Shown piece by piece: positions 27,276-39,568 of a stretch of 64,000 nt of DNA. The stretch's first letter is position 1; every line of letters starts with the position of its first letter. The position numbers were made by a program, and so were the translations under genes. Source of the stretch: Pyrococcus sp. ST04 (GTDB lineage: Archaea; Methanobacteriota_B; Thermococci; Thermococcales; Thermococcaceae). Location: NCBI RefSeq assembly GCF_000263735.1, contig NC_017946.1:537348-601347 (forward strand), read 5' to 3'. The notes under the pieces were generated by a model, which searched no databases, was not told the origin of the DNA, and saw only the letters and a program-made list of their open reading frames with translations.

Positions 27276-28079
27276 GTGTTCGAAGAAATAAACAGCTTTG
27301 AAGTTGCCTTTAAGAAGTTACTTGAAGATGTCCTCGAATTTGATGTGAAAAAGGCCTTGGAAGACGTTGATAAAGTTATCTGTATAGAGCCTCACCCTGA
27401 CGATTGTGTAATTGGGATGGGGGGGACGATAAGGAAGTTAACTGAGAGAGGTGTCGAGGTAGTTTACCTCTGTATGACCGATGGCTATATGGGAACCATG
27501 GATGAGGGATTAACTGGCCACGAGCTCGCTACAATAAGGAGAAGAGAGGAAGAGGAAAGCGCGAGAATGCTTGGAGTCAAGAAAATATACTGGCTGAATT
27601 ACAGGGATACTGAGTTGCCTTATACGAGGGAAGTTAGAAAGGACATTGTTAAGATAATCAGGAAGGAAAAGCCTGATGGGGTGTTCCTTCCAGATCCTTG
27701 GCTTCCATATGAGGCCCATCCAGATCACAGAACTACGGGTTTCTTGGCCTTAGATGCAGTTGCTTTCTCTCCACTACCAAACTTCTCAAACGTTGATTTA
27801 GATATAGGCCTAAAACCTCATACTGTATCTTTCGTTGCGTTGTACTACACAAACAAGCCGAATTACTTTGTTGACATAACAGATGTTATGGAGCTGAAGC
27901 TCAAGGCTATAAGAGCTCATAGAAGTCAGTTCCCCGACGATATTTGGGAGACTTGGGAACCCTTCCTTAGAACAGTGGCCCTCTTCTATGGACAAAAGGC
28001 GGGAGTTAAATATGCAGAAGGGTTTAGGGTAATGCCAGGTTTATTCTACCATATCACGCCTTTTGCTGATCTCATATGA
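27276..28079 (+). CDS. N,N'-diacetylchitobiose deacetylase (LmbE/PIG-L type)
   Basis: 267 residues. Zinc-binding motif PHPDD (H40, D43) near the start and AHPDH (H148, H151) in the middle define the LmbE/PIG-L deacetylase fold. In Thermococcales this enzyme removes the acetyl group from the non-reducing GlcNAc of diacetylchitobiose and from free GlcNAc. GTG start with a strong ribosome site. It stands at one edge of the sugar locus with the transporter, GlmD and GlmA, all consistent with chitin-oligosaccharide use. The stop overlaps the convergent PIN-domain gene by eight bases. Confidence 0.92.
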
Positions 28080-28521
28080 GTTCTTTTTCTATCATCAACT
28101 CTACTTCTTTTGTGAATTTTTCTAGTGGCATGGTGTCCAATCCAAATCTCCTTATTGGCTCGTACCTCTTGGGTTCGTCCGTTATGAGTAGACTTCCAGT
28201 ATAAATCGCCGTTGCTGCTGTCAAGACATCTTCCATGTCGAGCATTATTCCCTTTCTCAGTAAGTTGGCCTCAATTTGTGATGCTTTAATTATTATCTCC
28301 TCGTTCAGGGGGATTACTGTGTAAATATCTTTCAAAACTTCGAACTCAAGCTCAATATTCTTTTTTAGATATGCACGGGCGGTAAGGTACCTGTATAGTG
28401 TAATTATTGATAGGTTTACTGTGAACTTCGCTAGAGTTATCTCAAGTAGTCTCTTTCTACTTTTCGAATGCATTTTTAGCAAAGCCGAGCTGTCAAATGT
28501 TATGTCTGGGGGGAGTGGCAT
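28072..28521 (-). CDS. vapC: PIN-domain toxin VapC
   Basis: 149 residues. The PIN nuclease acidic residues can be placed as the D in [10 protein letters not shown] in the central helix region ([14 protein letters not shown]), D in [13 protein letters not shown] and D in [11 protein letters not shown] Mg-dependent ribonuclease, presumably neutralised by the small protein encoded just upstream. It begins four bases after the antitoxin gene. I recall that the P. horikoshii homolog has a crystal structure. Confidence 0.88.
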
Positions 28522-28524
28522 TTT

Positions 28525-28734
28525 TCAACTCTCCTTCTTCTTTTTTATGATGTTAATGAGGGTTTCTGCTTCATCATCGTTCATAACAACCTTATCTACT
28601 TTCTTGTCAAGTTCAACTAAGTGCCAGGTTTCTATGAGCTTCTGAAGTACCTCATCGTAGGATCTTGCCTCCAGTTTGTCCTTTAGCATTTTAATTTTCT
28701 TCCACGTGCTTTCATCAACGGCAATGGTTTTCAT
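28525..28734 (-). CDS. vapB: VapB-type antitoxin
   Basis: 69 residues. The N-terminal ribbon-helix-helix type segment TIAVDESTWKKIKMLKDKL is followed by SYDEVLQKLIETW, the usual pattern of archaeal VapB antitoxins, then a charged tail rich in Asp/Glu/Lys for toxin binding. The start ATG overlaps the stop of the GH1 gene (GAATGA), so this toxin-antitoxin pair is translationally coupled to a sugar hydrolase. Confidence 0.85.
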   Translation of the reverse strand: MKTIAVDESTWKKIKMLKDKLEARSYDEVLQKLIETWHLVELDKKVDKVVMNDDEAETLINIIKKKKES

Positions 28735-30182
28735 TCTATCCCCTCCTCAACAACCTTTTTGTATGTTTCAACACTCTTCCTTCTCGGGATTCTTTCCTTG
28801 GTTATTAGGTCGACCTCATAAAGGCCGAACCTGATCTTAAACCCCATTGCCCACTCATAATTGTCAGTCAGAGCCCAGTGGAAGTACCCGCCGACCTTTA
28901 TTCCGTTCTCTATTAACCTCTTAACTTCTTTTACATGGTCAATTATGTATCTCGGCCTTAGAATATCCTTGGAGTCTGCTATCCCATTCTCCGTTATAAA
29001 GACGTTCTTGTTGTATTCATAAGCCTCAGCCGTTGAATCGTACAGCCCTTGAGGGAACACCTCCCATCCGAAGTCACTTGTTGGATTGTTATCTGGAGAA
29101 ACACTATTTGGATTTCCAGAGTAGCCGTATCCCTCGACTCCAACGAACGTGACTAGGGGTAATTCTTCATATTTTGGTTCAATGTACCTAACGACTTCTC
29201 TAGTGTAGTAGTTATTCCCGATCCAATCGTTCCTTTTTATATGTGGGACCTTAATATATTCACCCGATATGTCTATGTCAAGCCTTCCCCTGTTAACGGC
29301 CTCTAAGAATAGCCTGTTGTGGAACAAATCATAATTCTCAGCGGCCCTTACATGTCTTGGATCCCTTGGATTTAATGGATAGGTGGGGATTATATTTAGT
29401 ATTATGCCTACGGGCTTATCTGAGAACTTCTTTATTGAATCATATGCCCTAGCATGGGCTACAACTTGGTTTAGGATAACTTTCTTTGCAGCCTTTGGAT
29501 TTAAAATTCCTGGAGGCCATCCAACGTAAGGGGCTAGGTAACCTAATTCTGCGGTAACCATTGGTTCGTCAAACGTTGCCCAGAAGTCGACATATTTATC
29601 GAACTTCCAAGCAACGTAAGCAACGAATTTTGAGAATTCTATGATAGTTTTTTCGTCTACCCAGCCTTTTGCCTTTGCCTTATCTATATTTGCCCTAACT
29701 TCTATTGGGTCATGGATCCAGATGGGATTTGTTTGATGGTTCAACGTTACAAATGTTGTGAATCCAAGCTTTTTCAGGTTTCTAAGGACGTTTAAATAGT
29801 GTTCAACTTCTCTCTTGTTTGCGATTTCATCGAGTTGTTCTAGGTGTTCTTTCTTTATTTTAACCTTTTTGATAAATCCATATCCGTCTTGCTCAATACT
29901 AACTTCAACATTAAATGTTGGGCATGGGAATATTCTACTCCACTCGATTGTTAGTTGATAGGCGTTTAGGCCGAGATCTTTGGCAAGTCTGTGATCTATT
30001 TCATAGAGATCGTAGTTATTTATTCCTTCTTCGGGAAGATCGCCACTCACTAACTCGTTCTTTATGTTATAGGGATCACGAACCCATATCCACCAATCGC
30101 TTCTAGGGTCAATATTCCTCCTATATGGATCCCCCATTTCAAACTGAAACGCGGACTGAACGACTCCCCAGTAGAATTCCAT
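28731..30182 (-). CDS. GH1 beta-glycosidase with DEP instead of NEP
   Basis: 483 residues from the ATG at 30182, which follows GGGGAGGAAT and gives the usual GH1 beginning MEFYWGVVQSAFQFEMG; an ATG 33 bases upstream lacks such a site. TIM-barrel glycosidase. The acid/base glutamate is E206 in TFDEPMV and the nucleophile E398 in FITENG. The family's Asn before the acid/base Glu, which binds the sugar 2-hydroxyl, is Asp205 here. From memory the P. horikoshii gene at this place was studied as a beta-mannosidase. Divergent from the transporter operon; co-transcribed with vapBC. Substrate could include 2-amino sugars (inference). Confidence 0.9.
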   Translation of the reverse strand: MEFYWGVVQSAFQFEMGDPYRRNIDPRSDWWIWVRDPYNIKNELVSGDLPEEGINNYDLYEIDHRLAKDLGLNAYQLTIEWSRIFPCPTFNVEVSIEQDGYGFIKKVKIKKEHLEQLDEIANKREVEHYLNVLRNLKKLGFTTFVTLNHQTNPIWIHDPIEVRANIDKAKAKGWVDEKTIIEFSKFVAYVAWKFDKYVDFWATFDEPMVTAELGYLAPYVGWPPGILNPKAAKKVILNQVVAHARAYDSIKKFSDKPVGIILNIIPTYPLNPRDPRHVRAAENYDLFHNRLFLEAVNRGRLDIDISGEYIKVPHIKRNDWIGNNYYTREVVRYIEPKYEELPLVTFVGVEGYGYSGNPNSVSPDNNPTSDFGWEVFPQGLYDSTAEAYEYNKNVFITENGIADSKDILRPRYIIDHVKEVKRLIENGIKVGGYFHWALTDNYEWAMGFKIRFGLYEVDLITKERIPRRKSVETYKKVVEEGIE

Positions 30183-30403
30183 ATTCCTCCCCAATCCAAC
30201 TTTATAGAATACCATGTTTTTATAATTTTCTTAGATAACTCCAACATGTTGAAGTACCCCCTTCTCTATGCCGAGAATTCTTCAGAAAATTGGTGTTCAA
30301 TGTAAATAATCCTCCATTAATGTTTCAACAGTTCCACCAAAAATCTTATATACATCACCGCTTCTTTACAAATTTGAAAGAAATTATAATGAGGTGGTCT
30401 CCT
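30183..30403. promoter_or_regulatory. Divergent promoter region, GH1 gene / sugar transporter operon
   Basis: For the transporter the TATA box is TTATATA at 30346-30352, about 52 bases before the ATG. For the GH1 gene an AT-rich box (minus-strand AAATTATAAAAAC, about 30215-30227) lies close to the start. A perfect palindrome CAACATGTTG is at 30242-30251, and its half TGTTGAA recurs inverted as TTCAACA at 30324-30330. These could bind a sugar-responsive repressor. Confidence 0.5.
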
Positions 30404-32308
30404 ATGAAAAAGTACTTAGCCACAATATTGGTGGCTCTGTTCTTCCTTAGTACAGTAGGTGTTGTTGCTGCCCAGGAGGAGCTTCCAAGAGAACAAACCT
30501 TGTATACAGCAAACTCAGCACCACCAACAAACGCTAATCCTCTCGCTGGAAGCAACATAATACCAATAGCCGGTCTCGTTTTTGAGCCACTGTTCATGCT
30601 CAACTTCATGAAGACCGAGCTTGTTCCATGGCTTGCAGACTATGGAAAGTGGGTTAAGCCAAATGTGTTCGAGGTTAAACTCAGGGAAGGAACAACCTGG
30701 CAGGATGGAAAGCCACTTACAGCTGAGGATGTAAAGTTCTCATTCGAATACTACCAGAAGGTTGGTCTCAAGGACTGGTCAAAGTATGGCCTCAAGGAGA
30801 TAAAGGTTGTTGACGACAGGACGGTTCAGTTCATTTTTGAGGGCACTCCAAACGTTTGGGCCTGGAGAAATGAGCTTTACAGTGTCCTAATTCTACCAGA
30901 ACACATCTTCAAGAACATCGACCCACAGAAAGTTAGGACAATGACATTCCTTGGTGATCAGCAGAAGTACCTCGTCGGTTCAGGACCATACAAGCTCTAC
31001 AAGGTTGTGCAGCAACAGAAGGCGATCTTCGTAAGGAACGATAACTGGTGGGGTGCAAAGTACTTCGGCCTCCCAGCTCCCAAGTACATCGTCCAGCTCT
31101 ATGTCGGTTCAAACGACCAGGCAGCAAACATGTTCCTCAAGGGAGACCTTGACGTCGGTACCTACTATGTTGACATAGTCGAGCTTAAGAAGAAGAACCC
31201 ACACATTGTCAGCTGGCTTGACAGGCCACCATACTTCCCACCAGTTGTTCCAGTTATAATGTACTTCAACACCAAGCACAAGCCACTTGACAACCCACTC
31301 GTAAGGAAGGCAATTGCCGAGGCCATCTGTCCAGCCCAGATCGTCAAGCAAGGACCAATAAGCGACCTCCCAGACCAGACCCCACTTGGAAACGTCATGA
31401 AGCCATGGAAGGAGAAGATCGGAGTTAGCCAACTAATTAATGAGTACGGCTGGAAGTACTGTGACCCACAGGATGCTGCAAAGCTCCTTGATGAGGCCGG
31501 AATTAAGGATACCGATGGAGATGGCTGGAGAGAGTACAACGGTAAGGATCTCGTTCTAACCTTCGCTGCCTGTGGTCCATGTAGCGACTGGATGCAGGCA
31601 GTTGAAATTGTCGTTAACCAGCTCAAAGCTATAGGAATCAAGGTTGATGTCAAGAAGTACGATTGGGGTACAATGGTCAGCAAGCAGCAGGCTGGAGAGT
31701 TTGACCTCACAATGCACTGGGCCGGAACCTTCAAGCCTGATCCATACAGCGTCTACTATGACCTAATGTACTACAAGAGTGATGAAGAGAAGGGAGGAGC
31801 CAACTTCGGAAACTACTACAACCCAGAGGCCAACAAGCTCTTAGACGAGCTTGCAAAAACACCTGATGAGGCCAAGCAGGTTGAACTCCTCAGAGAGCTA
31901 ACCAAGATCTGGCTCAAGGACGTTCCTGCAGTTCCACTCTACATGGGTACGCTGTTCTATGAGGCAAACACCCAGTACTGGGCCAACTGGCCAAACGAGG
32001 AGAACCCATACGGTGTCCCAATCTTCTGGCCAGGATTCGGTACATGGGGTACAGCACTAGCATTCCTCGGTGTTAGGCCAGCCAAGGCCGTTGGTCCAGA
32101 GACGGTGACCCAGACAGTAGAGAAGACCCAGACCGTCGAAAAGACTCAGACAGTCGAGAAGACGCAAACAGTAGAGAAGACCCAGACTGTTGAGAAGACT
32201 GTGACTGTTACGCAGACTCAGACTGCTACTGGTGGAGGCATTTGTGGTCCAGCGGCAATAATTGCCCTAGCAGCAGTCCCACTCCTCCTAAGAAGGAGGA
32301 GGCGCTGA
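30404..32308 (+). CDS. Sugar ABC transporter substrate-binding protein, CGP-CTERM anchored
   Basis: 634 residues from ATG 30404 (GAGGTGGT at 30391-30398). Signal peptide KKYLATILVALFFLSTVG, then a large solute-binding domain of the dipeptide/oligopeptide (SBP_bac_5) type with QDGKPLTAEDVKFSFEYY. A TVEKTQ-repeat linker and the C-terminus ICGPAAIIALAAVPLLL plus five Arg follow: the CGP-CTERM signal of Thermococcales, where Cys is probably lipid-modified. It lies outside the membrane. In this family such transporters often carry oligosaccharides; the locus points to chitobiose-type sugars. Confidence 0.92.
   Translation: MKKYLATILVALFFLSTVGVVAAQEELPREQTLYTANSAPPTNANPLAGSNIIPIAGLVFEPLFMLNFMKTELVPWLADYGKWVKPNVFEVKLREGTTWQDGKPLTAEDVKFSFEYYQKVGLKDWSKYGLKEIKVVDDRTVQFIFEGTPNVWAWRNELYSVLILPEHIFKNIDPQKVRTMTFLGDQQKYLVGSGPYKLYKVVQQQKAIFVRNDNWWGAKYFGLPAPKYIVQLYVGSNDQAANMFLKGDLDVGTYYVDIVELKKKNPHIVSWLDRPPYFPPVVPVIMYFNTKHKPLDNPLVRKAIAEAICPAQIVKQGPISDLPDQTPLGNVMKPWKEKIGVSQLINEYGWKYCDPQDAAKLLDEAGIKDTDGDGWREYNGKDLVLTFAACGPCSDWMQAVEIVVNQLKAIGIKVDVKKYDWGTMVSKQQAGEFDLTMHWAGTFKPDPYSVYYDLMYYKSDEEKGGANFGNYYNPEANKLLDELAKTPDEAKQVELLRELTKIWLKDVPAVPLYMGTLFYEANTQYWANWPNEENPYGVPIFWPGFGTWGTALAFLGVRPAKAVGPETVTQTVEKTQTVEKTQTVEKTQTVEKTQTVEKTVTVTQTQTATGGGICGPAAIIALAAVPLLLRRRRR
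32114..32200 (+). repeat. 18-base tandem repeat encoding TVEKTQ linker
   Basis: Nearly five copies of an 18-base unit encoding Thr-Val-Glu-Lys-Thr-Gln. Synonymous differences between copies show they are not a recent expansion. It forms an extended charged, Thr-rich stalk between the binding domain and the membrane anchor, possibly glycosylated. Confidence 0.85.
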
Positions 32309-32370: not shown

Positions 32371-33363
32371 ATGGGATTCAAAGACTATCTTAAGAGGAAA
32401 ATTGTGATTTATCTTCTGACATTTCTGTTTGCCGTTACCCTAAATTGGCTGTTACCAAGGTTAATGCCGGGTAATCCTATTGAAATTATGATAAATTCGG
32501 CATTAGGATTATCCCCTCAAGAGAGACAGACTCTGTTACAATTTTATGAGAACCTTTATGGGTTAAATAAGCCACTTTACGTTCAGTTCATAAGCTTTTG
32601 GAAGTCCCTATTAACCGGAAACCTCGGATATAGTATCCTTTATAGAGCCCCCGTATCTGAGCTTATTAAGCATGCATTACCATATGACATAGCTATATTA
32701 TTTCCTGCAATAGTCCTCAGTTGGATAGTGGGTAATTGGCTTGGGGCACTGGCAGGAAAGAACAAGAAATATGACAAATATGTGATGCCCTTGTTCTACT
32801 TCCTAGCAAGCATTCCCTACTTTTGGTTTGCCATGTTGCTCGTTTATGTAGTGGGTGTTAAGCTAGAGTGGCTTCCCTATCAAGGTGCTTACAGCCCTGA
32901 CCTTGTGCCATCATTGAGCATAGGGTTTATAGTAGACTTCCTAAAGCATTGGATACTTCCCTTCCTAAGCCTGTTCATAGTAATGATTGGAAGCTGGGCT
33001 ATCGGAATGAGGAATATGATAATCTACGAACTCGAGGCTGACTATGTGAGATACTTAGAAGCTCTAGGTGCTAGTGAAAAACTCATGACAAAGCACGCTT
33101 ACAGGAATGCCATACTCCCACAGGTTACAGGATTGGCTTTACAGTTGGGTCTGATGGTTGCTGGGGCGATTGCGACTGAGATAGTGTTCAATTATCCTGG
33201 AGTCGGTGTTCTCCTAATGCGTGCGGCCCTTAGTCAGGACTACTTCCTTCTCCAGGGAGGATTCCTAATGATAGTCATAGCAGTCCTCGTTGCAAACTTC
33301 GTGATAGACATAGTCTACGCACTAATCGATCCACGTGTTAGAGTTAGCTACACGGAGGGATGA
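32371..33363 (+). CDS. ABC transporter permease, OppB type
   Basis: 330 residues with six membrane helices. The N-terminus has the OppB-type LNWLLPRLMPGNPIEIMI, and the cytoplasmic EAA loop is YLEALGASEKLMTKHAYRNA. Forms a heterodimeric channel with the next gene's product in the cytoplasmic membrane. AGGAGGGAGAAG precedes the ATG. Overlaps the next gene by four bases. Confidence 0.93.
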   Translation: MGFKDYLKRKIVIYLLTFLFAVTLNWLLPRLMPGNPIEIMINSALGLSPQERQTLLQFYENLYGLNKPLYVQFISFWKSLLTGNLGYSILYRAPVSELIKHALPYDIAILFPAIVLSWIVGNWLGALAGKNKKYDKYVMPLFYFLASIPYFWFAMLLVYVVGVKLEWLPYQGAYSPDLVPSLSIGFIVDFLKHWILPFLSLFIVMIGSWAIGMRNMIIYELEADYVRYLEALGASEKLMTKHAYRNAILPQVTGLALQLGLMVAGAIATEIVFNYPGVGVLLMRAALSQDYFLLQGGFLMIVIAVLVANFVIDIVYALIDPRVRVSYTEG

Positions 33364-34280
33364 AAATGGAGCTTGTAAAGCTTGCATTCAAGAACAACAA
33401 GTTCAAATTTGGATTTGGTATGCTCGTATTTTTCATACTCTTTGGTTTAATAGGACCGCTCTTTACTCCCTTTGCCAGCGATGGATTGTATTATGAACAG
33501 GTGGGTAAAATCAAGCTGGCCTCATATTCAACAAAGACTCTTCCCCCAATGACCAGGGAGAACATAACGACATATACGGGAAAAACCGTTGAGGTTCTTC
33601 ACATACTCGGGACTGACAAGGAGGGTAGGGACGTCTATACTGAAATCGTGTATGGCCTTAGAACATCACTCTGGATAGCCTTCTTGGCGGCAATAATAGG
33701 AACAACACTAGGAATTACGATAGGTTTCATCTCCGGTTACAAGGGAGGAATCGTCGATGAGTTGCTGATGATGTTTGTGAACATAATGCTCGTTATACCT
33801 TCAATAGTTCTGCTTATCTTGGTGGCTGCCTACCTTGAAGCAAGGAGCCCAGCGGTGCAGGCCCTCATCATAGGATTAACTAATTGGCCCTGGGTTGCTA
33901 GGTCGGTTAGAGCTCAGACCCTCTCACTAAAGAATAGAGAGTTCGTTAACCTCGCCAGAATAGTTGGGCTCAGCGATCTCAGAATTATATTTGAGGAAAT
34001 AATGCCCAACATGGTGTCATATATATTCATGGTTGGAATCCTTCAAATCAGCGGTGCTATTCTCGCGTCAGCAACATTAGACTTCATAGGGCTGGGACCA
34101 ACGACGATGATATCACTAGGAACGATACTTCAGAAAGCTATAATGCACAATGCGCTTCAGTTCGGCTGGTGGTGGTGGTTTATCCCACCAGGGCTGATAA
34201 TCACCCTGATAATTACGGCATTGTTCTTCATAAACCTGGGTATGGAAGAAGTTTTCAACCCGAGACTTAGGAGGGAGTGA
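33360..34280 (+). CDS. ABC transporter permease, OppC type
   Basis: 306 residues. An N-terminal helix, a short outside region, then a five-helix permease core with the EAA motif FVNLARIVGLSDLRIIFEEI. LGTDKEGRDV is the typical OppC pre-core motif. Pairs with the OppB-type permease. ATG lies within the previous stop; an alternative ATG six bases further on is possible. Confidence 0.93.
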   Translation: MKMELVKLAFKNNKFKFGFGMLVFFILFGLIGPLFTPFASDGLYYEQVGKIKLASYSTKTLPPMTRENITTYTGKTVEVLHILGTDKEGRDVYTEIVYGLRTSLWIAFLAAIIGTTLGITIGFISGYKGGIVDELLMMFVNIMLVIPSIVLLILVAAYLEARSPAVQALIIGLTNWPWVARSVRAQTLSLKNREFVNLARIVGLSDLRIIFEEIMPNMVSYIFMVGILQISGAILASATLDFIGLGPTTMISLGTILQKAIMHNALQFGWWWWFIPPGLIITLIITALFFINLGMEEVFNPRLRRE

Positions 34281-34281
34281 T

Positions 34282-35247
34282 ATGGTTATGCTTAAAGTTG
34301 AGGGTCTCAAAATTTATTACGCTACTCCCGTGGGTTATGTGAAGGCTGTTGACGATGTAAGCTTTGAAGTAAAAGAGGGGGAAGTCTTTGGAATTGCTGG
34401 AGAGAGTGGGTGTGGTAAGTCAACCCTCGTCCACTCCCTAATCCTCAGAAAACCCCCAATGAAGCACATGGGTGGCAAGGCACTCTTCAAAGGGAGGGAT
34501 TTGATGAAACTCAGTAGGGAAGAGGCTAGGAAAATCCAATACACCCAACTCTCAATAATCCCCCAATACGCAATGAACGCACTAAACCCAACAAAGAAGA
34601 TTAAGGACATAGTCTGGGACTTGGCAAGAGAACACGGTTACGAGGATAGGGAAGAAGTCGAAAAACTCCTAAGAGAGAGGCTCGCAATGGTCAAGCTGAG
34701 TCCAAAAGTTGCTGACATGTATCCTGTGGAATTAAGTGGTGGCATGAGGCAGAGGGCCACAATGGTAGTCTCAACTCTCCTCAACCCAGACCTCCTCATT
34801 GCTGATGAAATCACCTCAGCCCTCGACGTGACTACCCAGAGGGTTGTTATTGAACTACTCCACCACTTCATGGAAGAGGGTATCGTCAAGTCGATAATCT
34901 TCGTGACTCATGACTTGGCATTGCTTAAGCAGATTGCTGACACGGTAATGGTCATGTATGCGGGGAAGGTTGTGGAAATTGGCCCAATGGAGGATGTCAT
35001 TAACGACCCAGCCCACCCGTACACGCAAATGCTCTTGAACTCCCTCCCGAGAATGGGCGTGCATTATAAGAGGCAGAAGCTTCACGGGATTTCTGGTTAT
35101 CCAATCAGCCTCCTCAATCCGCCCAAGGGTTGTCGCTTCTACACTCGTTGTCCTTATGCAATGGATATCTGCCCAGAAGTTGAGCCTAGGATGGTTGAGG
35201 TTAATAGGAATCACTTCGCGGCTTGTCATATGCTTGGGGGTGAGTGA
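34282..35247 (+). CDS. ABC transporter ATPase, OppD type
   Basis: 321 residues. Walker A GESGCGKST, Q-loop in SIIPQYAMNALNP, ABC signature LSGGMRQRA, Walker B LLIADEITSALD and H-loop VTHDLA. The C-terminal extension has the Cys-rich oligopeptide-family motif GCRFYTRCPYAMDICP, which in related archaeal ATPases may hold an Fe-S cluster. Works with the following ATPase as a heterodimer. The stop overlaps the next start region. Confidence 0.94.
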   Translation: MVMLKVEGLKIYYATPVGYVKAVDDVSFEVKEGEVFGIAGESGCGKSTLVHSLILRKPPMKHMGGKALFKGRDLMKLSREEARKIQYTQLSIIPQYAMNALNPTKKIKDIVWDLAREHGYEDREEVEKLLRERLAMVKLSPKVADMYPVELSGGMRQRATMVVSTLLNPDLLIADEITSALDVTTQRVVIELLHHFMEEGIVKSIIFVTHDLALLKQIADTVMVMYAGKVVEIGPMEDVINDPAHPYTQMLLNSLPRMGVHYKRQKLHGISGYPISLLNPPKGCRFYTRCPYAMDICPEVEPRMVEVNRNHFAACHMLGGE

Positions 35248-35249
35248 TG

Positions 35250-36221
35250 ATGCCTGGAGGGGAGTTGCTTAAGGTTGAGCATCTTACGAAGGTATTCACC
35301 TCGGGATTGATTGGGGGGTTTGAAATTAGGGCTGTTGATGATGTTAGCTTCACAGTGAATGAGGGTGAGATTGTCTCGTTGGTTGGGGAGAGTGGTAGTG
35401 GTAAGACTACTGTTGGGAAGTTGATTCTTAGGCTTTTGACGCCGACTTCGGGGAGGATTCTCTTCAAGGGAGAAGACATCATGGAATTCAAGAAGGATAG
35501 GTTGAAGAATTATTATTATAGGCAGGTTCAGGCAGTGTTCCAGGATCCTTTTGCTTCTTTCAATCCGCTTCACAAGATTGATAGGGCTTTTGATCTGGTC
35601 TTCAGGACGTTCCTTAAGGATGTTTCGGAAGAGGAGAGGGGGGAGCTAGTGGAGAAAGCCTTGGAGAGTGTTGGTTTGAATCCTAGGGAGGTTCTTGGGA
35701 AGTTTCCTCATCAGTTGTCTGGGGGGCAGTTGCAGAGGGTTTTGATTGCTAGGGCTCTCTTAGTTAAGCCCTCCTTGTTGATTGCTGATGAGGCTGTGTC
35801 AATGCTTGATGCATCGACTAGGATTGATATTCTTAACCTTCTGGGAGAGTTTAGGGACAAGTATGGGACTTCAGTTATTTTCGTGACTCATGATTTGGCC
35901 CTCGGGTACTACATTAGTGATAAGACAATAATAATGTATAGGGGAACCATTGTTGAGTGGGGTGATACTGAAAAGGTGTTCCGTAATCCTCTCCATCCTT
36001 ATACTCAGATGTTGCTTGAGAGTGTCCCCGATCTCAATGTAAAATGGGAGTTTAAGGGCATTGAGCCTGAGAGGGAGGAGGGGAGGGTTTATGGGATTAC
36101 TGGATGTAGGTACGCGCCAAGATGTGAAAGAGCAATGGATAAGTGTTGGAAGGTTAGGCCACCATTGATTGAGGTTGAAAAAGATCACTGGGTAGCATGC
36201 TGGCTCTATTCCAAAGCTTAA
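35250..36221 (+). CDS. ABC transporter ATPase, OppF type
   Basis: 324 residues from the second of two adjacent ATGs (35247, 35250), chosen for its spacing from GGGGGTGA. Walker A GESGSGKTT, Q-loop VFQDPFASFNP, signature LSGGQLQRV, Walker B LLIADEAVSMLD and H-loop THDLALG; C-terminal Cys motif GCRYAPRCERAMDKC. The codon usage of this gene is richer in T-ending codons than the preceding ATPase gene. Second ATPase of the sugar importer. Confidence 0.93.
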   Translation: MPGGELLKVEHLTKVFTSGLIGGFEIRAVDDVSFTVNEGEIVSLVGESGSGKTTVGKLILRLLTPTSGRILFKGEDIMEFKKDRLKNYYYRQVQAVFQDPFASFNPLHKIDRAFDLVFRTFLKDVSEEERGELVEKALESVGLNPREVLGKFPHQLSGGQLQRVLIARALLVKPSLLIADEAVSMLDASTRIDILNLLGEFRDKYGTSVIFVTHDLALGYYISDKTIIMYRGTIVEWGDTEKVFRNPLHPYTQMLLESVPDLNVKWEFKGIEPEREEGRVYGITGCRYAPRCERAMDKCWKVRPPLIEVEKDHWVACWLYSKA

Positions 36222-36237: not shown

Positions 36238-37209
36238 ATGCACGCAACGTTAAATGAGATTAGGAGAACTCCCGAAGGAATATTAAAGGCTCAGGAAGCA
36301 TTTGAAAAAGTGAAAGATGTAAAGCTCCCAAGGAAGATCTTGTATACAGGTTGTGGATCTTCTCACTTCCTTTCTCAATTATTGGCAATGGCCACGAACA
36401 AACTGGGAGGAAGAGGGTTTGCCCTCCCCTGCTCTGAGCTGATGTATGCAAGGGACTATTATCCGATAGAGCAACCTGGACTTCTAGTTGCAATATCGAG
36501 ATCCGGAGAAACAACCGAGGTTCTCAAGGCAATGGATATGCTCGATGTTAGAAAGATGGGTATAACTGCATATGAAAGCAGCCTCTCCAAGAAAGCTGAC
36601 TATGCCTTGGTGGTTGAAACTCCTGAGGACAGCGTTGTAATGACTCATTCTTTCCAGGCGTTTTATTTTGCCTACATACAGCTCCTTCGAAAGTCCTATG
36701 ATCTTGAGACCTTTAATGCAGAGCATGTTTCAGAATTAACGAAGGATGTTCTTGGGAATGAAAGCTATATCAGAGACATCATCGAGGAGTTTGAATTTTC
36801 GAATGTAATATTCCTTGGCTCCGGAATTTTATATCCAGTAGCATTAGAAGCGATGCTGAAGATGAAAGAGATGGCCATTTTCTGGAGCGAGGCTTATCCG
36901 ATGTTCGAAGTTAGGCACGGATTCAAGTCAATAGCAGATTCAAACTCACTTGTTGTGATGTTTGTTCCCTCTCCATTTGACTGGCACGAAAAACTTGTTA
37001 AGGAATTTCAGGGCCAGGGTGCTAAGGTATTCGTGATTGGGAAGGAGGAGCTTGGGGCAGATTATTTCATAAAGTTGCTAGAAGTTGATGAACTGTTGCA
37101 ACCGGTGATAGTGCTCCCTCTAATTCAGCTCTTGGCATACTATAAGGCGGTAAAGAGGGGAATGAATCCAGACAATCCTAGATTCTTGGACAAAGTGGTT
37201 AGGTGGTGA
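36238..37209 (+). CDS. glmD: GlmD, glucosamine-6-phosphate deaminase of SIS type
   Basis: 323 residues, two SIS domains without the glutaminase domain of GlmS: first site [17 protein letters not shown] with [14 protein letters not shown], second [19 protein letters not shown]. In Thermococcales, GlmD converts glucosamine-6-phosphate (or the corresponding amino sugar phosphate) to fructose-6-phosphate and ammonia. Start ATG lies 17 bases after the transporter ATPase gene and follows GGGGGGTTTGAA. Placed directly before glmA, so the locus covers hydrolysis and deamination. Confidence 0.92.
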
Positions 37210-37213
37210 GAAT

Positions 37214-39568
37214 ATGAGGGTTACTCACAATGGAAAGGTATACGTTATTGATGGCGAGGAAGTTGTCATCTATGGGGGAACTCTTCAATTCTTTAGAGTT
37301 CCCAGGGATGTTTGGAAGGATAGATTAGAGAAAATGAAGTCACATGGCCTAAATACCGTTGATACGTATGTAGCATGGAACTGGCATGAACCTGAAGAGG
37401 GCAACTTCGACTTCACAGGTGAAACGCATCCTCAGAGAGATCTAGTAGGGTTCCTTGAACTGGCACAGGAATTGGGGTTATACGTAATAATAAGGCCTGG
37501 GCCATATATATGTGGTGAATGGAAAAATGGAGGCATTCCTCAGTGGCTGATCAACAAACATCCAGAAATACTCGCCAAAGGTCCTGAAGGTTCTCTGCCC
37601 AACGATATATACTATCCACCTATAACGTATCTCCATCCTACCTATCTCGAATATGTAATGAGATGGTACGATAGGGTTTTCCCAATAATAAAGGATTACC
37701 TCTACACGAATGGGGGGCCGATAATAAATATTACAATTGATGACGAGCCATCATATTGGGAAACGATATTTCAGGCTTTCCTAACTGACTATAATGACAT
37801 TATAGTTAAGGAAAATGGCGTTTGGCATCAGTGGCTTAGGGAGAACTTCAGCATAGATCAGCTTGAGGACAGGTACAAGGTTAAAATTTCAGACTATGTT
37901 GAAGTTGAACCTCCCAAGAGCTTCTCAGAACCTCTACCGAAAATAATCGATTGGCACCACTTTAAGGTATGGATGATAAATGAATATGTTAAGAGACTTT
38001 ATGAGAAAATTAGGGAGTACGTTGATGTACCAATCAGTATACTTGATCCTTACCTCCTCCTAGCTGCCTGGAGGCACTTCTACAACTATGTGAAGAAGAA
38101 CTCCTTGGACATCCATCTCTGGACCGAGTTCTGGTACTCATTCTACAGGAGCTTTGACTTTAAAGAGGACAGACTTGGTCATATCTACTACAAAACAGGA
38201 ATATACAGGAACTACATAAGGAAACTTAGGACTCCTCCTTTGAGCATTGAAACTCAAACATCTCTGGCCAACGTGATAGAGCCTGATGAGGCTGAGTTAT
38301 TATATGGCCTGTTGCCTTCCCTCGGAATACATAATATAAATTATTATCTATACGTTGGTGGAGAGAATCCAAGGGGTTATGAGTCACATAATGGAGTAAC
38401 CTGGGATGTGTACTCACCGATAAGCTTAGATGGAAAGGAGAGGCAGCATGTTGAGCCTATAAAGTGGATTGGAGAGTTCCTTAAGAGCAACAAAGAGTTC
38501 GTTTACGCCCCGTTCCAGGCAGAAGTTGCCTTTGGAACTTATGAACCCTATGAACCGCTGAACCTTTGGGGGTATAGGCCAGAAAACTTCAAGGAAACCG
38601 TTAACTTGGACGAGTACCTTTATGGAGAAAGGGGGCTCTTGACGTTACTAGCTATGAGCAATGTTGTATTTGACGTGATAGACCTTGAAAATGCGACAGT
38701 TGAGGAAATGCTTAACTACAAGCAACTTTGGGTTTACAGCCTAGACTTCATGGCCAGGGAAGTTCAGGACAAGCTCGTGGAGTACGTGGAAAGAGGTGGG
38801 AACCTAGTCATAATGCCCATGCTTCCTTACTTAGATGAGAACATGAATGAGTACAGAAGGCTTGAGGAGTTCCTAGGAGTCAAAGTAGAAGAGAAATCTG
38901 CCAGAGATAATTTCAGGCTGATACCCTTCGTAAGCATCGATGCTGAGGGAATTGACAGGATGATAACTAGGAATGTTGCGAGAGAGGTGCGTGGTGGAAC
39001 TCCAATTGCTTGGGCCAATGGGAAGCCAGTTGCTGCTCTAGTCAGGAAGGGTAAGGGCTCGGCAATAATCCTTGGCTTCAGGCTTCAGTACTTTTCAAGC
39101 TATCATGATATGCACAGAAAGTTTGTTGATAAGTTGCTTAAGCTTCAGGGAGTTGAGAGGAGATTTGAGGTCACGGATAGGGATATGATAGTCATTCCGA
39201 GGGGTAATTATCTTGCATTGATAAATCCAAGGGGCCACAGAGTCTTTGGGAAGATAAAGTACAGGGGAATAGAAATGCCAAAGCTACTTGAGGGCATTGA
39301 GATGAAGACTAGAGGAGTTCTATTCCTGCCAGTGGGTGTAAGGTATGGACGCTTTGAAGTCGTTTACTCAACGGCAACTGTTGTGGGAAGTGATGGGGAT
39401 AGCATAAGCTTTAGGAACCACCTGAGCAACAAGAGCGAGGTTGCCCTAAGAGGTGTTAACTCGGTTGAGATTAAGGGAGGCAGAATAATCGAGGAGAAGA
39501 TCGATGGAGATACTAGGATAATTGCAGTTGAACACGGAGACAAGGAGTTCACTCTTCTCCTTCGCTAG
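37214..39568 (+). CDS. glmA: GlmA, exo-beta-D-glucosaminidase (GH35-related)
   Basis: 784 residues. N-terminal TIM barrel of GH35 type with FFRVPRDVWKDRLEKMK, GPYICGEWKNGGIPQWL, acid/base E178 in ITIDDEPSYWE and nucleophile E346 in LSIETQTS; GH42-like middle domain (TLLAMSNVVFDVI) and beta-rich C-terminus. In related Thermococcales the enzyme splits GlcN from GlcN-GlcNAc formed by the deacetylase. The enzyme has no signal peptide, so it acts in the cytoplasm after uptake. Starts five bases after glmD; its last 20 bases overlap the convergent RIO2 gene. Confidence 0.94.
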   Translation: MRVTHNGKVYVIDGEEVVIYGGTLQFFRVPRDVWKDRLEKMKSHGLNTVDTYVAWNWHEPEEGNFDFTGETHPQRDLVGFLELAQELGLYVIIRPGPYICGEWKNGGIPQWLINKHPEILAKGPEGSLPNDIYYPPITYLHPTYLEYVMRWYDRVFPIIKDYLYTNGGPIINITIDDEPSYWETIFQAFLTDYNDIIVKENGVWHQWLRENFSIDQLEDRYKVKISDYVEVEPPKSFSEPLPKIIDWHHFKVWMINEYVKRLYEKIREYVDVPISILDPYLLLAAWRHFYNYVKKNSLDIHLWTEFWYSFYRSFDFKEDRLGHIYYKTGIYRNYIRKLRTPPLSIETQTSLANVIEPDEAELLYGLLPSLGIHNINYYLYVGGENPRGYESHNGVTWDVYSPISLDGKERQHVEPIKWIGEFLKSNKEFVYAPFQAEVAFGTYEPYEPLNLWGYRPENFKETVNLDEYLYGERGLLTLLAMSNVVFDVIDLENATVEEMLNYKQLWVYSLDFMAREVQDKLVEYVERGGNLVIMPMLPYLDENMNEYRRLEEFLGVKVEEKSARDNFRLIPFVSIDAEGIDRMITRNVAREVRGGTPIAWANGKPVAALVRKGKGSAIILGFRLQYFSSYHDMHRKFVDKLLKLQGVERRFEVTDRDMIVIPRGNYLALINPRGHRVFGKIKYRGIEMPKLLEGIEMKTRGVLFLPVGVRYGRFEVVYSTATVVGSDGDSISFRNHLSNKSEVALRGVNSVEIKGGRIIEEKIDGDTRIIAVEHGDKEFTLLLR

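Follow-up and report, generated by a model that had tools for sequence, protein, structure and literature searches.

The GH1 gene and its chitin/glucosamine locus

The window, a 64,000-nucleotide stretch of the Pyrococcus sp. ST04 genome, carries a GH1 beta-glycosidase gene among genes of chitin and glucosamine metabolism (Table 1). The order of the locus is dac, PIN, VapB-like and GH1, then, divergently, the SBP gene, four ABC genes, glmD and glmA. A preliminary description of this DNA had spoken of a locus for glucosamine sugars; the GH1 gene lies between dac and the SBP/ABC genes, with glmD-glmA beyond them.

Table 1. Features of the GH1 locus, in window coordinates.
Feature	Position	Strand	Basis
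Dac-type PIG-L deacetylase, diacetylchitobiose deacetylase position	27276..28079	+	PF02585, conserved neighbour
PIN-domain VapC-like protein, orthologue of PH0500 / VapC4	28072..28521	-	PIN domain, neighbourhood
VapB-like antitoxin, 69 aa; ATG overlaps GH1 stop (ATGA)	28525..28734	-	sequence, homologue search
GH1 beta-glycosidase, 483 aa, orthologue of TK1761 / PH0501	28731..30182	-	ORF, NF041004, PF00232
Glu398, nucleophile, FITENG	28989..28991	-	alignment
Glu206, acid/base catalyst; kept in every GH1 compared	29565..29567	-	alignment
Asp205 (GAC); other GH1 have Asn	29568..29570	-	translation, alignments
Gln150 (CAA), next residue after pocket His149; other GH1 have Phe/Trp/Tyr	29733..29735	-	alignment
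Gln76 (CAA); other GH1 have Arg, or Ser in four proteins	29955..29957	-	alignment
Family-5 solute-binding protein (SBP) of ABC transporter, divergent from GH1	30395..32308	+	PF00496
ABC transporter permeases and ATPases, four ORFs	32371..36221	+	ORF list, gene order and sequence
GlmD glucosamine-6-phosphate deaminase	36238..37209	+	NF041128 613.3 bits, cut-off 580
GlmA exo-beta-D-glucosaminidase (GH35)	37214..39568	+	NF041127 1569.2 bits, cut-off 1500
GlmA Asp177 (ITIDDEP), equivalent of TkGlmA Asp178	37742..37744	+	sequence; PMC6566704

The GH1 gene lies within a minus-strand open reading frame at 28731-30215, and the plus strand across 28731-30182 is closed by stops. The encoded protein begins MEFYWGVVQS at the ATG at 30182, which is directly preceded by GGGGAGGAAT, making this start of the 483-residue protein likely. 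Family profiles match it over its whole length, with 495.2 bits against NCBIfam NF041004 BgaS (cut-off 475) and an E-value of 4.6e-63 against Pfam PF00232. Its nearest solved relative is PDB 7f1n (E 7e-145). Only GH1 families were matched, and there was no match to the NF041127 / GH35 profile. The catalytic pair, acid/base E206 and nucleophile E398, is kept within the T-x-N-E-P and I/V-T-E-N-G motifs, the Asn of the first being replaced by Asp. Two usual GH1 residues are missing, namely the Asn before the acid/base Glu (here D205) and the Arg that contacts the nucleophile (here Q76). Neither is needed for GH1 membership, since the active orthologue TK1761 also lacks both. As judged from its sequence, the protein is a catalytically complete retaining beta-glycosidase, predicted to be cytoplasmic, with no apparent signal peptide.

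The same surroundings recur at 28 other loci with an Asp205-bearing (D-type) GH1, where about 650 bp separate dac from the GH1 gene and the SBP gene is on the opposite side, with glmD-glmA, where the contig reaches, about 6-7 kb away. In two genomes (G005 and G080) glmA lies elsewhere, away from the D-type GH1. Neither glmA nor glmD was found near the Asn-bearing (N-type) GH1 paralogues examined with their surroundings. Only one of these paralogues (L117, in G080) is within 10 kb of a dac, and it is so because it shares a 20-kb stretch with the D-type copy and its dac. The intergenic region between the GH1 and SBP genes (30183-30394) contains conserved divergent TATA-like elements, AAAATTATAAAA for GH1 and TATATAA for SBP. 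A conserved stretch with repeated TTATAA adjoins the SBP start in this region and is a candidate shared operator.

Substitutions in the sugar pocket

Residue 205 is read from the plus-strand letters gtc as gac on the minus strand, within WATFDEPMVT, in agreement with the preliminary description. Its further claim that Asp here departs from the usual TxNEP Asn also holds in the set compared. Asp occupies the position in all 32 aligned Thermococcales orthologues (72-100% identity), which rules out chance or sequencing error as its source. Asn is present in every other Thermococcales GH1 protein of the set, comprising sister-group paralogues at 56-61% identity (18/18), CelB-like enzymes (7/7) and BGPh-like enzymes (39/39). 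The preceding NHQTNPIWIHDP, also described earlier as unusual, is so only in part. Gln150 is specific to the clade, with F, Y or W elsewhere, but the surrounding pattern x-H-x-T-x-P-x-W-I-H-D-P is ordinary (PDB 7f1n has LNHFTLPLWIHDP). A third pocket change, absent from the earlier account, is Gln76 in NAYQLTIEWSR, in place of a conserved Arg. Gln76 and Gln150 accompany Asp205 in all informative Thermococcales orthologues, while Gln13, His149, Glu206, Tyr325, Glu398, Trp436, Glu443 and Trp444 are unchanged among the residues checked.

The triad R76Q, aromatic150Q and N205D, in the -1 sugar pocket, is thus fixed in the TK1761 / BmnA clade. With the three columns left out of the tree, the rows bearing it (n=28, full-length) form a single clade with an SH-aLRT of 100, so that the triad arose once. 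A codon-pattern scan for W-x-T-x-D-E-P in 115 genomes of the phylum recovered these 32 orthologues as its only GH1 matches. Across 298 archaeal genomes, no Asp-type GH1 from outside the clade was found among the translated matches, a few further matches with non-Phe codons having been left untranslated. The other translated matches were unrelated to GH1, and among them no case of Asp arising separately in another archaeal GH1 was found. AlphaFold, run on eight sequences, gave a pLDDT of 51, and this model was too poor to keep and was discarded.

Several variants were seen in single enzymes or small groups. Four sister-group GH1 proteins (L120, L121, L123 and L124), which form one supported clade, combine Ser76 (NAYSLNLEWSR) with Tyr150 and Asn205, Ser76 being a second departure from the conserved Arg. 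An archaeal GH1 that is 51% identical (L177, in G139) has Thr (TITEP) for the conserved Asn, and thus the Asn position varies elsewhere too. The orthologue at L033/L097, from a MAG (G009), has the nucleophile motif FITAKG instead of FITENG, reflecting either a real loss or an assembly error.

Known orthologues

Two orthologues could be tied to named proteins through their neighbours. The GlmA of one genome (G023) is identical to PDB 5gsm over 757 residues, which identifies the genome as T. kodakarensis KOD1 and its D-type GH1 as TK1761. Read from the first Met, TK1761 has Gln77 and Asp206, corresponding to Gln76 and Asp205 of the window protein. In another genome (G006), the PIN protein beside the GH1 gene is identical to PH0500, so that the genome is that of P. 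horikoshii and its GH1 is PH0501. We take PH0501 to be the BmnA of Kaper (2002) and TK1761 to be the TkbetaGly of Ezaki (1999) and Hwa (2015). TkbetaGly is about 74% identical to the window GH1 and shares its locus and operon, with sequence differences at the species level only; TK1761-1763 is a known operon. BmnA, 88% identical and adjoining PH0500, has the same triad and no active-site difference among the positions compared.

Hwa (2015) reportedly exchanged active-site residues of the KOD1 enzyme, exactly Gln77 and Asp206, and Kaper (2002) is said to have interchanged the corresponding two residues of P. horikoshii BmnA and P. furiosus CelB. As both studies dealt with these positions, the D205/Q76 substitution is not a discovery; it is already in the literature for orthologues. 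CelB, Thermosphaera BglB and the Sulfolobus beta-glycosidase (PDB 3apg, 1qvb and 1uwq) share with the window GH1 the fold, the catalytic Glu pair, H149, E443 and W444, but have, as aligned, Asn at 205 and Trp at 150. At position 76, where the window enzyme has Gln, CelB-like enzymes and most relatives have Arg.

Regarding activity, the T. kodakarensis orthologue is described as cleaving neutral beta-glycosides, best pNP-beta-fucoside (PMC11376072), and is cited as an exo-mannosidase (PMC8233224). The preliminary description had counted a common Asp among beta-mannosidases of this clade as evidence against an amino-sugar role. Asp is in fact invariant in the clade, whose members are described as beta-glycosidase or mannosidase. 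Literature searches found no report of amino-sugar activity for this clade.

Co-occurrence with GlmA and the VapBC-like genes

GlmA was found in 33 of the 94 Thermococcales genomes. A D-type GH1 is present in 32 of these 33 and in none of the 61 genomes without GlmA (Fisher p = 2.5e-24, uncorrected for relatedness). The sole exception, G045, is 74% complete. This co-occurrence argues strongly that the D-type GH1 has a role in the chitin/glucosamine pathway, and is weak evidence as to its substrate chemistry. Since the triad has one origin, Asp and the locus have not become linked repeatedly and independently.

A VapB-like/PIN pair lies directly downstream of the GH1 gene in 29/29 D-type and 13/14 N-type sister-group genes with room for it (loci L091-L130 and the window). 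No such pair was seen beside CelB-like (0/4) or BGPh-like (0/34) genes. About 50 VapB homologues occur in the 94 genomes and, by coordinates, nearly all adjoin a D-type or sister-group GH1. Two pairs stand without an intact GH1. One, in P. horikoshii (L202, 4880-5237), has a GH1 remnant of about 50 C-terminal residues just upstream. Near the other, in the genome of the window itself (L200, 7277-7884, with L201, 1-96), there are just a GH5-like gene and an incomplete ABC-ATPase-like fragment. These cases suggest that GH1 was lost and the VapBC genes kept. The VapBC pair seems to have accompanied this glycosidase lineage for a long time and to have been duplicated along with it; its function may be regulatory, as opposed to that of a stray toxin-antitoxin system.

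Possible activity on amino sugars

Both GH1 and GH35 are families of clan GH-A, and thus the Asn-Glu pair is structurally equivalent in the two families. The Asn before the acid/base Glu is conserved across the clan and binds the 2-hydroxyl of the sugar. Exo-beta-D-glucosaminidase (EC 3.2.1.165) releases GlcN from non-reducing ends. In the T. kodakarensis GlmA, Asp178 replaces this Asn before acid/base Glu179 and hydrogen-bonds the C2-NH2 of GlcN, and the D178N variant is inactive (PMC6566704). IaSGT, a glucose-acting GH35 relative of GlmA, keeps Asn175 (PMC8861115). The window GlmA carries the equivalent Asp (ITIDDEP). GlmA thus shares with the window GH1 the replacement of Asn by Asp, the gene locus and the intracellular GlcN pathway, but it belongs to another family without family-level homology, has fold extras, is dimeric and shows nearly no glucoside activity.

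The preliminary description had suggested that Asp205 could contact a 2-amino group. By analogy with GlmA, the 2-ammonium group of the substrate would pair with the Asp205 carboxylate as it does with Asp178, and Gln76 in place of Arg would leave no neutralising salt bridge to Asp205 and no repulsion of the substrate. Physiological substrates may then include beta-linked glucosamine, such as the GlcN-GlcNAc or GlcN oligomers that Dac produces. The GH1 would keep its broad activity on neutral beta-glycosides, and so would assist or broaden GlmA, not replace it. On this analogy, together with the triad, the co-occurrence with GlmA and the conserved neighbourhood, we put at close to an even chance that the window GH1 is a cytoplasmic chitin-pathway beta-glycosidase accepting beta-glucosaminides beside neutral beta-glycosides, which makes this the likeliest of the readings considered. 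A point against this is that GlmA already performs the glucosaminidase step, so that no pathway gap demands the GH1. Further, the parallel is incomplete, as GlmA cleaves glucosides very weakly, which sets it apart from this GH1. With an orthologue that works well on neutral sugars, the GH1 would be dual at best.

The enzyme may instead be a broad neutral beta-glycosidase or beta-mannosidase serving as a general disaccharide cleaner in the chitin locus, with Asp205 and Gln76 reshaping the 2-OH site to suit mannose, whose 2-hydroxyl is axial. We regard this as quite possible, if short of expected. It would fit the activity on glucoside, fucoside and mannoside ascribed to the T. kodakarensis enzyme, and also the contact of Asp206 with the axial C2-OH that Hwa (2015) is said to have proposed and the BmnA and CelB comparison at residues 76 and 205 that Kaper (2002) reportedly made. 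Exclusive co-occurrence with GlmA would be unexpected for a general mannosidase, however, and other broad-specificity Thermococcales GH1 enzymes keep Arg and Asn. That the triad mainly alters the catalytic pair in charge and pKa, with an effect on pH optimum or stability and no relation to the 2-substituent, appears improbable. Gln76 does replace an Arg that contacts the nucleophile in GH1, as is established for the family, and the paired N-to-D and R-to-Q changes leave less positive charge in the pocket; but the triad is absent from all other hyperthermophile GH1 enzymes of the set, so that heat or pH by itself does not call for it. Very improbable is a main role of the GH1 in transglycosylation, forming or degrading a glycoside that serves the chitin regulon as inducer or store, although the gene and the transporter operon are divergently arranged, the VapBC pair shares an operon with the GH1, and hyperthermophile GH1 enzymes are generally known to transglycosylate readily.

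Implications

Extended from the window enzyme to the whole TK1761/BmnA clade, the amino-sugar reading would make these proteins GH1 exo-beta-glucosaminidases, an activity that to our knowledge is not listed for GH1. The GH1 and GH35 enzymes of one archaeal chitin locus would then have independently turned a 2-OH-binding Asn into an amino-binding Asp, with GH1 also losing the neighbouring Arg. We advance this wider proposal tentatively, leaning somewhat against it. The new part would be the function, the residue change itself having been published for orthologues. If the proposal is true, a one-residue rule, with Asn for a 2-hydroxyl and Asp for a 2-amino group, would be common to two clan GH-A families, and Thermococcales enzymes annotated as beta-galactosidase or beta-mannosidase may belong to glucosamine catabolism.
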